Shown here: positions 9,696 through 14,856 of the stretch, in pieces
How the letters are laid out: each line of letters opens with the position of its first letter
How positions within the stretch are numbered: position 1 is the first letter of the stretch
NCBI GenBank assembly: GCA_947491305.1
Contig: CANLIL010000020.1
Span: 1 to 42,251, forward strand
Origin: Flavobacteriales bacterium
Lineage (GTDB): Bacteria > Bacteroidota > Bacteroidia > Flavobacteriales_D > Crocinitomicaceae
Length of the DNA stretch: 42,251 nucleotides
Reading direction: 5' to 3'
Position numbers and translations under genes: made by a program
Notes under the pieces: model-generated
Database searches by the model: none
Seen by the model: the letters and a program-made list of their open reading frames with translations, nothing else
What the model was told of the DNA's origin: nothing

Positions 9696-10466
9696 ATGAA
9701 GAAACTATATAAGTTTTTATTGAATAAATTACCGCGACCTTTGTTGATTCGATTGAGTTATTTATTTAAAAAAATTGCTCCAATTGTATACAAAGGAAAC
9801 AATGTAGAATGCCCTGTTTGCAACCGATCTTATTCGAAATTTTTATCCTATGGATCTTCAATAGCGCACCGTGAAAATGTGTTATGTCCGGGAGATTTAA
9901 CACTTGAACGGCACCGTTTAATGTGGTTATATTTAAAAGATCATTCAGATTTTTTTACGAATAATAAACTGAATGTGTTGCACATTGCACCAGAACAATG
10001 TTTTCACAAACGTTTCAAGCAACAGCAAAATCTTAACTATTTAACAGGAGATTTAGTTTCTCCTATAGCAGATATTCATTTTGATTTACACCATATTCCT
10101 TTAGAAGAAAATCGTTTTGATGTAATCTTTTGCAATCATGTATTAGAACATGTTGAAGATGCAAACCAATGTATGCGAGAACTGTTTCGTGTTATGAAAC
10201 CAGGAGGCTGGGGAATAATGCAAGTGCCACAAGATTTTGAGCGCGAAATTACTTTTGAAGACCCTTCAATTACAAGCGAAGAAGATAGAGAACATTATTA
10301 TTGGCAAAAAGACCATGTTCGATTATTTGGTAAAGACTATCCAAATTGGTTAGAAAAAGCAGGATTTAAAGTGGACGTATTTGAAAAAGAAAAATTCTAT
10401 TCAAGTTCACAAATTGAACGTTTTAGATTACAAGAAAAAGAAATTTTGTATATTTTACGCAAATAA
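9696..10466 (+). CDS. SAM-dependent methyltransferase (class I, Methyltransf_11 type)
   Basis: 256 residues. An N-terminal part holds a CPVCNRSYSKF segment that may be half of a metal-binding knuckle. The Rossmann methyltransferase core has LNVLHIAPEQCFHKRF in place of the canonical glycine-rich motif I, then FDVIFCNHVLEHVEDANQCM (motif II/III) and FRVMKPGGWGIMQVP. The substrate cannot be told from the sequence. The MbnP-like gene begins six bases after the stop, so the three genes to the right may share a transcript with it, though a functional link is only inferred. Confidence 0.8.
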   Translation: MKKLYKFLLNKLPRPLLIRLSYLFKKIAPIVYKGNNVECPVCNRSYSKFLSYGSSIAHRENVLCPGDLTLERHRLMWLYLKDHSDFFTNNKLNVLHIAPEQCFHKRFKQQQNLNYLTGDLVSPIADIHFDLHHIPLEENRFDVIFCNHVLEHVEDANQCMRELFRVMKPGGWGIMQVPQDFEREITFEDPSITSEEDREHYYWQKDHVRLFGKDYPNWLEKAGFKVDVFEKEKFYSSSQIERFRLQEKEILYILRK

Positions 10467-10472
10467 AAAATA

Positions 10473-11450
10473 ATGAGAAATTTACTTTCAATAATTAGTG
10501 TTTTTGGTTTTTGTATAACATTAACCGCGCAAAAAAATGTTTACTTAACATTTGCTCCAAAAGTTGGAAGTGATTTGCTTCAATTAGATCAAAATTACAC
10601 CAGTTTAAATGGTGATTTGTTTAAATTGGCTCATTTTAATTACTACTTATCCAATTTGCATTTAATTCATGATGGTGGGCAAGATTTAGATTTATCGGAC
10701 ACCGTTTTTTTAATTAAACATAACCAGTATGTTTTAAATCTTGGTCTATTAGCTATTCAAAACATTGAGTCAATTCAATTTGGTATTGGAGTTCCACCAA
10801 ATCTAAATACGCAAGCCGGAGCTAATGCTATAGATATTTCTACACGTCCTGCTAATCATCCTTTAAGTTTTCAAGATCCATCAATGTATTGGGGTTGGTC
10901 AGCTGGCTACATGCACATGATTATTGGTGGAAGGGCAGATGCAAACAACGATCAAGATCCTGAAAAAGTTTTTGAATTACACAATTTAGGTGATGCAAAT
11001 TATCATTCACTTTCATTGAATGTGATACAAACAAACACATCAACTAACGTGATTGATGTATTCATGGATTGCCATGTCGATCGATGGATGAAAAATATTC
11101 CTATTAAAACTATTGGTGTTCAGCATACTTCTATTAATTACAATGCTTCAATCATGTTGAATGTTGTACATGAGAATGTGTTTGATCAACCTGCTACAGC
11201 ATCTGTAAACGCTCTTGAATTCACTAAAGGAACTATAATTTATCAAACAGAAAACAAAACCATGCTTTGGCAGAATGTTAAAAATGCTAATCGTTTTCAA
11301 TTGGTAGATTTATCTGGAAGAATACATTTAACAGCTCAAGCAAATGAATCTGGTTCAATTGATTTAAATGAACAAAATAATGGAGTTTACATATTTACAA
11401 TAGTGAGTGAAGATGGAACTGTTTTAAATTCGCTTAAAATAAATCATTGA
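10473..11450 (+). CDS. MbnP-like copper-binding protein with T9SS type A sorting domain
   Basis: 325 residues. A signal peptide ends CITLTAQ (about residue 20). The body matches the MbnP family: FNYYLSNLHLIHDGGQ near residue 55, FGIGVPPNLNTQAG (103-116), MYWGWSAGYMHM (138-149; Trp140, Trp142, His148) and FELHNLG with His170. In characterised MbnP and CorA a tryptophan is oxidised to kynurenine and helps bind copper. Residues about 255-325 form a T9SS type A sorting domain (FQLVDLSGRIHL, NNGVYIFTI), so export across the outer membrane is predicted. The MbnH-like enzyme gene overlaps its stop by one base. Confidence 0.8.
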   Translation: MRNLLSIISVFGFCITLTAQKNVYLTFAPKVGSDLLQLDQNYTSLNGDLFKLAHFNYYLSNLHLIHDGGQDLDLSDTVFLIKHNQYVLNLGLLAIQNIESIQFGIGVPPNLNTQAGANAIDISTRPANHPLSFQDPSMYWGWSAGYMHMIIGGRADANNDQDPEKVFELHNLGDANYHSLSLNVIQTNTSTNVIDVFMDCHVDRWMKNIPIKTIGVQHTSINYNASIMLNVVHENVFDQPATASVNALEFTKGTIIYQTENKTMLWQNVKNANRFQLVDLSGRIHLTAQANESGSIDLNEQNNGVYIFTIVSEDGTVLNSLKINH

Positions 11451-12442
11451 TGCGCTTTAAGTCATTTTCTTTTACATTGTTTTCAATAGGCGCATTTATT
11501 GTGCCTTTTTTTATTGCTAAAAACACGATTGAAATTAAAAAAATCTCTAAAGAAATTGATCGCACTAAAGAACGTTTAACAGTTCAACTTGGTGAGTTGC
11601 TTTTTTTTGAAAAACGACTTTCCATTAATAATTCGGTTTCTTGTGCGACATGTCACGTGCCAAAATATGCATTTACAGATCGGAAAAAAGTAAGTGAAGG
11701 TGTTTTTGGAAGAAAAACAGAACGAAATTCACCATCACTATTCAATGCCTACAAATTAAAAACCGTAATGTATGACGCACATTTATCAACATTAGAAATG
11801 CAAGTTATCGTTCCAATTCAAGAACATGTTGAAATGGATATGAAAATGATTGATTTAATCAAGAAAATAAAACAAGTCGAGCAGTATAATGCATTAGCAA
11901 TCAAAGCATTTGACAGAGAGTTTGATGCGTTTGTATTAACTAGAAGTATTGCTGCTTATGAACGTACGTTGCTTTCAGTAGACTCACGGTTTGATCGTTA
12001 TTATTCAAAGAAAAACAACAATTCATTAACAAAAAATGAAGTTGCCGGTTGGAAATTGTTTAGTGAAAAATTATATTGTACCAAATGTCACCCAGCACCT
12101 GATTTTACAACATTTTTACCTGAAAACAATGGTCTTTACAAAGAATATAGTGCCGATAAAGGAAGGTTTAGGATTAAATTAGACTCAACACAAATCGGCT
12201 ATTTCAAAATCCCATCTCTAAGAAATATCGCGGTTACTTATCCATATATGCACGATGGTAGTTTGAAATCTCTAACTGAGGTAATTGACCAGTATAGTAG
12301 AGGAGGAGCAGGTCATTCATTACAAAGTAAAAACATTCAACCTTTTAAGTTATCTAAACAAGAAAAATACCAATTGATTGTATTTTTAAAATCCTTGACA
12401 GATTTATCTTACTTAAAAAACAATACGAAACATACGAAATAA
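11450..12442 (+). CDS. MbnH-like di-haem cytochrome c peroxidase/MauG-family enzyme
   Basis: 330 residues from the ATG in TGATG; an in-frame TTG one codon earlier is unlikely. A hydrophobic N-terminus (about 5-23) is a signal or anchor. Two c-type haem motifs are present, CATCH (65-69) and CTKCH (210-214), spaced as in bacterial di-haem peroxidases, followed by PSLRNIAVTYPYMHDGSL near residue 255-272. MbnH enzymes oxidise a tryptophan of the neighbouring MbnP to kynurenine. One-base coupling to an MbnP-like gene makes MbnH a better call than a plain peroxidase. This assignment is an inference from context. Confidence 0.82.
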   Translation: MRFKSFSFTLFSIGAFIVPFFIAKNTIEIKKISKEIDRTKERLTVQLGELLFFEKRLSINNSVSCATCHVPKYAFTDRKKVSEGVFGRKTERNSPSLFNAYKLKTVMYDAHLSTLEMQVIVPIQEHVEMDMKMIDLIKKIKQVEQYNALAIKAFDREFDAFVLTRSIAAYERTLLSVDSRFDRYYSKKNNNSLTKNEVAGWKLFSEKLYCTKCHPAPDFTTFLPENNGLYKEYSADKGRFRIKLDSTQIGYFKIPSLRNIAVTYPYMHDGSLKSLTEVIDQYSRGGAGHSLQSKNIQPFKLSKQEKYQLIVFLKSLTDLSYLKNNTKHTK

Positions 12443-13935: not shown

Positions 13936-14856
13936 ATGAAATACGTTATTTTTACCTTAACAATTTTTTCTTCTTTATTTGCTATTTCTCAACATGCAAA
14001 TTTTAATACCCAAAAAAATTGGTCTTTAAACAAAAAGGAAATTCTATTCGGTATTGGTGCTACACAATTCACTGGTGATGTTGGTGGCTCTGATGGAATT
14101 GGAAAAGATTACAGCTTAAGAGATTTGGATTTAAGAGCCACTCGATTCTCAGGTTTAATCGGATTCAGATATCGTTTTGCGCCAATGTGGTCTACAACTA
14201 CAGTTTTAAATTTTGGAATGTTAGCAGGAGATGATGCTTATACGGAAGACATTGTTCGTAAAAGTAGAAATTTACATTTCAGATCTTGGGTGGTTGAATT
14301 AAATCAACGAATTGAATTTATTGTTTATTCAAATGAAGGCTTTGTATCATCAAAAAACAATTCAAAAGCTAGAAATAAAAATGAAAGAGTCTATTTATTT
14401 AGTGGGATTGGTATTAACTACTTTTATTCTCAAGCAAGGTACAATAATGAATGGGTTGGTTTAAGAGAGTTAAAAACTGAAGGACAAGGTTTAGCCGGTG
14501 GGCCTTCAGAATATTTACCAATAACTGCAACAATTCCAATGGGTATAGGATTTAGAACTGCGTTGGGTAGAATGTGGAGCATTGGAATTGAAGCGAGTTA
14601 TGTTAAAACATTTAGTGATTATATTGATGATGTACACGGTGTATATTACGATCCAGCGAATTTAGGTTCGCCAGCCGCTCAATATTTATCTAATCCTGCA
14701 CAAATGAATGCCGATTGGTTTAATCCTGGATCTAAAAGGGGAGATAGCCAAAATGATTCGTACTACTATTTAAATTTTGTTGTAACTAAAAACATTACTT
14801 ACAAGGACAATAAAAGAAATTCTGGTGGTATTATTAAAGGAAGGTACAAATTCTAA
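13936..14856 (+). CDS. Outer-membrane beta-barrel protein (DUF6089-like)
   Basis: 306 residues with a signal peptide ending LFAISQ (about residue 18). KKEILFGIGATQFTGDVGGSDG opens a barrel typical of the DUF6089/OmpA-like beta-barrel proteins of Bacteroidota. Later strands such as FRSWVVELNQRIEFIVY and ERVYLFSGIGINYFYSQ fit an eight-strand barrel, and WSIGIEASYVKTFSDYIDDVHGVYYD is a hallmark of the group. The function is unknown. It has its own promoter inside an inverted repeat and its own terminator. Confidence 0.7.
   Translation: MKYVIFTLTIFSSLFAISQHANFNTQKNWSLNKKEILFGIGATQFTGDVGGSDGIGKDYSLRDLDLRATRFSGLIGFRYRFAPMWSTTTVLNFGMLAGDDAYTEDIVRKSRNLHFRSWVVELNQRIEFIVYSNEGFVSSKNNSKARNKNERVYLFSGIGINYFYSQARYNNEWVGLRELKTEGQGLAGGPSEYLPITATIPMGIGFRTALGRMWSIGIEASYVKTFSDYIDDVHGVYYDPANLGSPAAQYLSNPAQMNADWFNPGSKRGDSQNDSYYYLNFVVTKNITYKDNKRNSGGIIKGRYKF

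Follow-up and report, generated by a model that had tools for sequence, protein, structure and literature searches.

Among the described systems closest to the gene pair studied here is that of MbnP (7l6g) and MbnH (6e1c) of Methylosinus trichosporium. The Cu(I) of MbnP is reportedly held by a His, a Met and solvent, close to a kynurenine that is said to derive from the first Trp of a WxW motif. Surface proteins with kynurenine and copper(I) whose genes are co-transcribed with that of a di-haem enzyme are also known, namely CorA and MopE (PMC3912023, available part). With respect to the enzymes, MauG and the earlier characterised peroxidases have a Trp between the two haems which was held necessary, whereas BthA of Burkholderia thailandensis (6nx0), a MauG-type enzyme with Tyr-His ligation, has no such Trp (Ser257) and yet forms the bis-Fe(IV) state (PMC6405878, available part).

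In this study, we report a related gene pair in the window, which is the whole stretch of 42,251 nucleotides analysed and comes from a member of the Bacteroidota. The position and the evidence of its features are provided in Table 1. It resembles MbnP and MbnH of M. trichosporium in the folds, in a M-x-W-x-W motif with a later His and in the axial Tyr of the enzyme, and differs from them in a T9SS tail on the first protein, in a genome without a match to MbnB and in the residue between the haems, which by alignment is Tyr in the window enzyme and Trp in 6e1c. The pair is a conserved variant of a known system, with an enzyme that lacks an amino acid once thought essential. In our opinion, it probably, though by no means certainly, makes a surface copper protein in which kynurenine would form in the periplasm, Cu(I) would be bound and export would follow through T9SS. 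A surface kynurenine-copper protein is not new, as CorA and MopE indicate; the T9SS route and the enzyme without Trp are the variation. The pairs MopE/SACCP and CorA/CorB are the precedent for the one proposed here, and no T9SS tail is mentioned for MopE or CorA in the available part of the report (PMC3912023).

Table 1. Features of the gene pair and its upstream neighbour, with window positions.
Feature	Position	Strand	Evidence or remark
SAM-dependent methyltransferase (Methyltransf_11)	9696..10466	+	Pfam 8.3e-15
MbnP-family protein with T9SS type A tail, 325 aa	10473..11450	+	PF20243, fold match to 7l6g
Probable Sec signal peptide, residues 1-19	10473..10529	+	Hydrophobic N-terminus, then Gln20
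Met138-x-Trp140-x-Trp142: predicted copper Met and predicted Trp to be oxidised (Trp140)	10884..10898	+	Conservation, 7l6g alignment
His170, predicted copper ligand	10980..10982	+	103/115, aligned with His of 7l6g
T9SS type A C-terminal domain, residues 252-325	11226..11447	+	TIGR04183
MbnH-type di-haem enzyme, 330 aa from ATG 11450; TTG 11447 also possible	11450..12442	+	TIGR04039, 6e1c
Haem 1 site CATCH, residues 66-70 counted from TTG 11447	11642..11656	+	Invariant 107/107
Tyr109 at inter-haem (MauG Trp93) position	11771..11773	+	Aligned with Trp of peroxidases
Haem 2 site CTKCH, residues 211-215	12077..12091	+	Invariant 107/107
Tyr283, MauG-type axial ligand position	12293..12295	+	Met in peroxidases

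The product of the first gene matched PF20243 with 94 bits (cut-off 27; E = 1.4e-26), which places it in the MbnP family. Its score against TIGR04052, the MbnP equivalog, was 41 bits for a cut-off of 140, and therefore the protein was filed as a PF20243 member only and not as an equivalog. The model predicted with AlphaFold2 from 65 sequences had a mean pLDDT of 87, and the first six Foldseek chains for it were all of MbnP 7l6g. VIA-align superposed the predicted fold on 7l6g with a Z of 16.4 and 2.9 A over 202 residues, and none of the other VIA-align matches listed covers the MbnP part of the model as well. The MbnP-like assignment proposed in the sequence-only reading is thus confirmed by both family score and predicted fold. 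MopE and CorA were not among the profile or fold matches listed for this protein. The predicted signal peptide is probably cut before Gln20, which is kept in 111 of the 118 MbnP ORFs aligned.

Residues were counted in 115 MbnP relatives, these being the 118 ORFs minus three that are cut short (L041, L046, and L113). Trp140, Trp142, and Tyr146 were invariant (115/115 each), while Met138 was found in 114, His218 in 111 and His170 in 103; Met138, Trp140, Trp142, and His170 occurred jointly in 102 relatives, and all four were invariant among the 65 closest MbnPs. A profile of 30 MbnPs (A6) retrieved 7l6g (E = 8.7e-8) with the Met-x-Trp-x-Trp and the later His aligned, and this alignment placed Met138, Trp140, Trp142, and His170 of the window protein at the M-A-W-N-W and His columns of 7l6g. 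A profile from the tailed set alone retrieved T9SS tails from the PDB and no MbnP. Given the alignment with 7l6g and the site reported for MbnP, Trp140 is the predicted target and Met138 and His170 are the predicted ligands, so that the WxW motif would be accompanied by the Met and the His of a copper site. By comparison, the copper ligands of CorA are two His, H64 and H114 (PMC3912023, available part).

The sequence-only reading had named Trp140, Trp142, and His148. The three residues are at these positions, and the key tryptophan of the family is present, given that both Trp of the WxW motif are kept in every relative counted. His148, however, was rejected as the copper ligand of the family because of its partial conservation (61/115, with Phe there in 37/115), Met138 and His170 being the residues that align with 7l6g instead. 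The 12 relatives without His170 had Phe (five), Arg (five) or Asn (two) at this position. Among them, L084, L086, L088, L090, and L095 keep the WxW motif and the enzyme, which means that one common copper site cannot be the purpose in every case. In loci L105, L109, and L111, two tailed MbnP genes lie in tandem before a single enzyme gene, whose product has Leu between the haems, and one of the tandem copies in L105 and in L111 had Arg for His170. The tailed proteins of L100 and L101 (13-kb loci L282 and L283) presented WxW and Asn for His170, and no di-haem enzyme was found in the 13 kb around them.

The C-terminal domain of the window protein was recognised by TIGR04183 with 28.7 bits (cut-off 23), as in other T9SS type A cargo, while PF18962 remained below its cut-off (22.3 bits for 27). 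The predicted fold of the tail was most similar by VIA-align to the DUF3244 domain 4g5a_A (Z 10.0), followed by the T9SS entries 8gl8_D (Z 8.8, 2.2 A, 70 aligned) and 8gl6_D (Z 8.6, 2.5 A, 71 aligned). It must be considered that this Ig-like fold is common, and therefore TIGR04183 is better evidence than the fold. The own genome of the window encodes both the translocon SprA (2416 bits) and the sortase PorU (981 bits). Unlike other T9SS type A cargo, this one is a putative copper protein accompanied by a gene for its maturase. The tail reported from the sequence alone is thus real, but it is not unusual as had been claimed: tailed pairs are common in the same bacterial family and occur in others too. 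A gene with weak similarity to PorG of T9SS (13936-14856; 66.9 bits for a cut-off of 130) was also observed downstream of the pair, past a sigma factor gene.

The stop codon of the MbnP gene (TGA, 11448-11450) overlaps the ATG of the enzyme gene by one base, in agreement with the ORF coordinates first proposed, whereas a start at the in-frame TTG would give an overlap of four bases. The loci of the family-level set contain 106 tailed MbnP ORFs. Of these, 93 are followed immediately by a gene for an enzyme of 250 aa or more, and three others by one cut by a contig end, which excludes an adjacency by chance. The remaining ten comprised one contig edge (L046), the three first copies of the tandem MbnPs mentioned above, two loci with the enzyme on the opposite strand (L110 and L112) and four (L099, L100, L101, and L123) in which no enzyme was found within the stretch fetched. 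A one-off fusion or a mis-assembly was ruled out, since the same architecture is present in many separate assemblies. In 76 of 81 loci the methyltransferase gene immediately precedes the pair in the same orientation, with a gap of −56 to +14 bases in 73 of those 76, and one of the five exceptions lies at a contig end. Its product has no evident export signal, and the gene is likely co-transcribed with the pair. It does not precede the C22 or the C42 pair of the own genome (the C82 pair is cut by a contig end) and it was absent in several other genera of the bacterial family. The divergent genes found upstream are a relative of DUF4421 proteins in 52 of 81 loci, without a Pfam match in the window copy and with one in the L158 copy, and an S9 peptidase in 48 of 81 loci, which the window lacks.

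With respect to distribution, a protein search gave a match in 156 of 200 genomes of the same bacterial family at E ≤ 1e-5, a threshold at which weak matches may rest on the tail alone. The 118 MbnP ORFs aligned, from family loci and the own genome, included 106 tailed by length, a share biased upward because the query itself is tailed; two of the other 12 are cut short. In a survey of the phylum 75 of 296 genomes matched (E ≤ 1e-10), and it yielded ten long MbnPs from outside the family (L128-L137). For nine of these, TIGR04183 was above the cut-off in four, weak in two and absent in three; it was also above the cut-off in L253, a further tailed MbnP from a class survey. Among the best 80 of 112 confirmed loci from named genomes, which share genomes with the family set and do not form an independent sample, the relatives were mostly metagenome assemblies of Crocinitomicaceae, Flavobacteriales, Flavobacteriia, and Cryomorphaceae, together with several other names such as Chitinophaga pinensis. 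The nearest among the matches listed was L156 (84% identity), from an assembly of Crocinitomicaceae; its place on the contig is that of G051, a genome of the genus of the window. A DNA search of plasmids gave no match.

The own genome contains four MbnP genes with four partner enzymes (C82, C22, C42, and the window), and only the window MbnP is tailed. The C82 and C22 pairs have lipoprotein-like N-termini on both proteins, and the C42 MbnP is untailed and has no clear lipobox. Each of the 20 genomes searched within the genus has three to six PF20243 matches, a count that includes some gene fragments at contig ends. The absence of nearby methanobactin genes claimed by the sequence-only reading stands for MbnB, as TIGR04159, the one methanobactin profile searched, had no match anywhere in the genome, and on this ground a link to methanobactin was discarded. 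A fifth MauG-like enzyme gene was observed on contig C40 (L015, 7606-8796), which carries none of the four MbnP genes. On contig C42, the untailed MbnP-MbnH pair is followed by the gene of a T9SS-tailed YHYH protein (L014, 10942-12303); YHYH genes also accompany untailed pairs in L297, L300, L305, and L311, and the copy in L265 is the gene of L297. The C42 pair is preceded by a sigma-factor-like gene and a small CpxP-like gene, both named by eye (L014, 7905-9252), which suggests stress control.

Regarding the enzyme, its best NCBIfam match was MbnH (TIGR04039) with 239 bits, under the equivalog cut-off of 363, and therefore it is called MbnH-type and not filed as an equivalog. MauG (TIGR03791) was second with 176 bits, and the nearest solved relative by sequence was MbnH 6e1c (E = 6.1e-39). 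The two CxxCH motifs noted beforehand were both found, and the position of Tyr283 is occupied by Tyr in 105 of 107 enzymes. BthA is also of MauG type, and it is 26% identical to the window enzyme in the structural alignment; no MbnP partner is named for it in the available part of its report (PMC6405878), whereas the window enzyme adjoins an MbnP gene.

An argument against a kynurenine-copper site arises from the inter-haem position, in which the window enzyme does not have the Trp of characterised MauG and MbnH. In 107 enzymes at family level this residue was Phe in 76, Trp in 14, Tyr in 8, Leu in 7, and Met in 2; thus Trp is missing in 93. It was present in none of the 93 enzymes whose best-matching query was the window enzyme and in all 14 that are nearer to the other enzymes of the own genome. 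The 93 tailed pairs at family level included 85 without Trp and 8 with it. Outside the family, the partners of the ten long MbnPs all had Arg and that of L253 had Trp, while the 57 untailed MbnPs had a partner with Trp in 44 cases, a Trp-less one in 11 and none found in two. An association between tail and loss of Trp is strong in these raw counts, but it was rejected as not independent of descent on a FastTree tree of 129 enzymes, from which part of the family-level set was left out. In this tree the tail changed three times and Trp seven times; independent pairs of tail change numbered two on supported branches (three on all), and in the two supported pairs the residue class of the enzyme was the same throughout.

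It could be, although we think it unlikely, that the Trp-less enzyme oxidises MbnP in another way (on the second Trp, by a crosslink or by partial oxidation) and that the product is not the kynurenine-copper site of methanotrophs. In addition to the missing Trp, this is favoured by Trp142 and Tyr146 being as invariant as Trp140, and by the loci in which two di-haem enzymes are encoded within 3 kb. Of 20 such distinct loci, some of which are close relatives so that the counts are not independent, 17 combined an enzyme with Trp and one without, two had Trp in both (one of these includes a peroxidase, L247) and one had it in neither. Three of the 17 mixed loci (L131, L172, and L192) have an MbnP for each enzyme; in the other 14, one MbnP or none was seen in the available stretch. 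A doubtful extension of this idea would be that MbnH enzymes with and without the Trp share out the work, the Trp-less ones forming a class with a function of its own and carrying out another oxidation, such as that of the second Trp in the WxW motif. Two-enzyme loci might then hold one enzyme of each class per MbnP, lineages such as that of the window might keep at the locus only the Trp-less enzyme for the T9SS-exported MbnP, and the product might be a surface metal or redox centre unlike a kynurenine-copper site. Evidence against a different chemistry comes from the 102 of 115 relatives in which WxW is combined with both Met138 and His170, and from the 11 of 55 untailed pairs outside the family that are Trp-less as well. 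Furthermore, BthA makes the same high-valent state with Ser in this position (PMC6405878, available part), and consequently the absence of the Trp does not show a loss of function.

A kynurenine-copper site might also mature on the surface, the enzyme being a surface lipoprotein that meets MbnP after export, which we regard as improbable. A Cys after the N-terminal hydrophobic stretch is nearly invariant (61 of 64 orthologous enzymes), and SACCP and MopE are both on the cell surface of Methylococcus capsulatus (PMC3912023, available part). However, this Cys is absent in the window enzyme, in its nearest relative L156 and in L212, and it is preceded by Arg, Lys or Gln in 47 of the 61, which makes a poor lipobox. 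In addition, CorB and its counterpart in Methylomicrobium alcaliphilum are mainly periplasmic (PMC3912023, available part). The window enzyme may be held in a membrane by its N-terminus.

Finally, it is very improbable that the enzyme is mainly a peroxidase, coupled through common regulation in oxidative stress to a neighbouring surface protein whose WxW has only a structural role. The shared fold speaks for this but leaves the matter undecided, being nearly equal in Z for MbnH 6e1c (29.9, first) and for the peroxidases YhjA (29.6) and 3o5c (29.4). Against it, the axial Tyr is Met in three peroxidases of the class survey (L240, L247, and L250), MbnH is nearest by sequence, and the enzyme and MbnP genes stay paired across bacterial families. 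An ordinary cytochrome c peroxidase was discarded on the axial Tyr and the sequence ranking, and the tree, in which these three peroxidases were the outgroup, agrees. The MbnH-type identity given from the sequence alone is thereby upheld.

From the characterised relatives we infer that the surface copper protein would be made as follows. MbnP would pass the inner membrane by Sec and fold in the periplasm, where the MbnH-type enzyme, powered by peroxide or oxygen, would dock on it and oxidise Trp140, the first Trp of M-x-W-x-W, to kynurenine. The matured site, formed by Met138, His170, kynurenine 140 and water, would hold one Cu(I). SprA would then recognise the tail, the folded protein would cross the outer membrane, and PorU would cut off the tail and anchor or release the protein, which may serve for copper capture or handling at the cell surface. 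It must be noted that several points stand against this reading: the inter-haem Trp is missing, 12 of 115 relatives lack His170, TIGR04052, TIGR04039, and PF18962 scored under their cut-offs, TIGR04183 is recognised in only 76 of 115 MbnPs, and four tailed MbnPs have no enzyme in the stretch fetched. A literature search gave no paper on MbnP with T9SS or on type IX secretion with kynurenine and copper, which is weak evidence given that subscription papers were mostly outside its coverage.

If the reading of a surface copper protein is true, kynurenine-copper proteins would not be confined to methanotrophs: they would recur at the cell surface of Bacteroidota and have a secretion route of their own, and one small genome would carry several differently sorted copies. 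The Trp-less enzymes, in turn, are natural variants with which to probe how oxidising equivalents may be moved without an inter-haem tryptophan.
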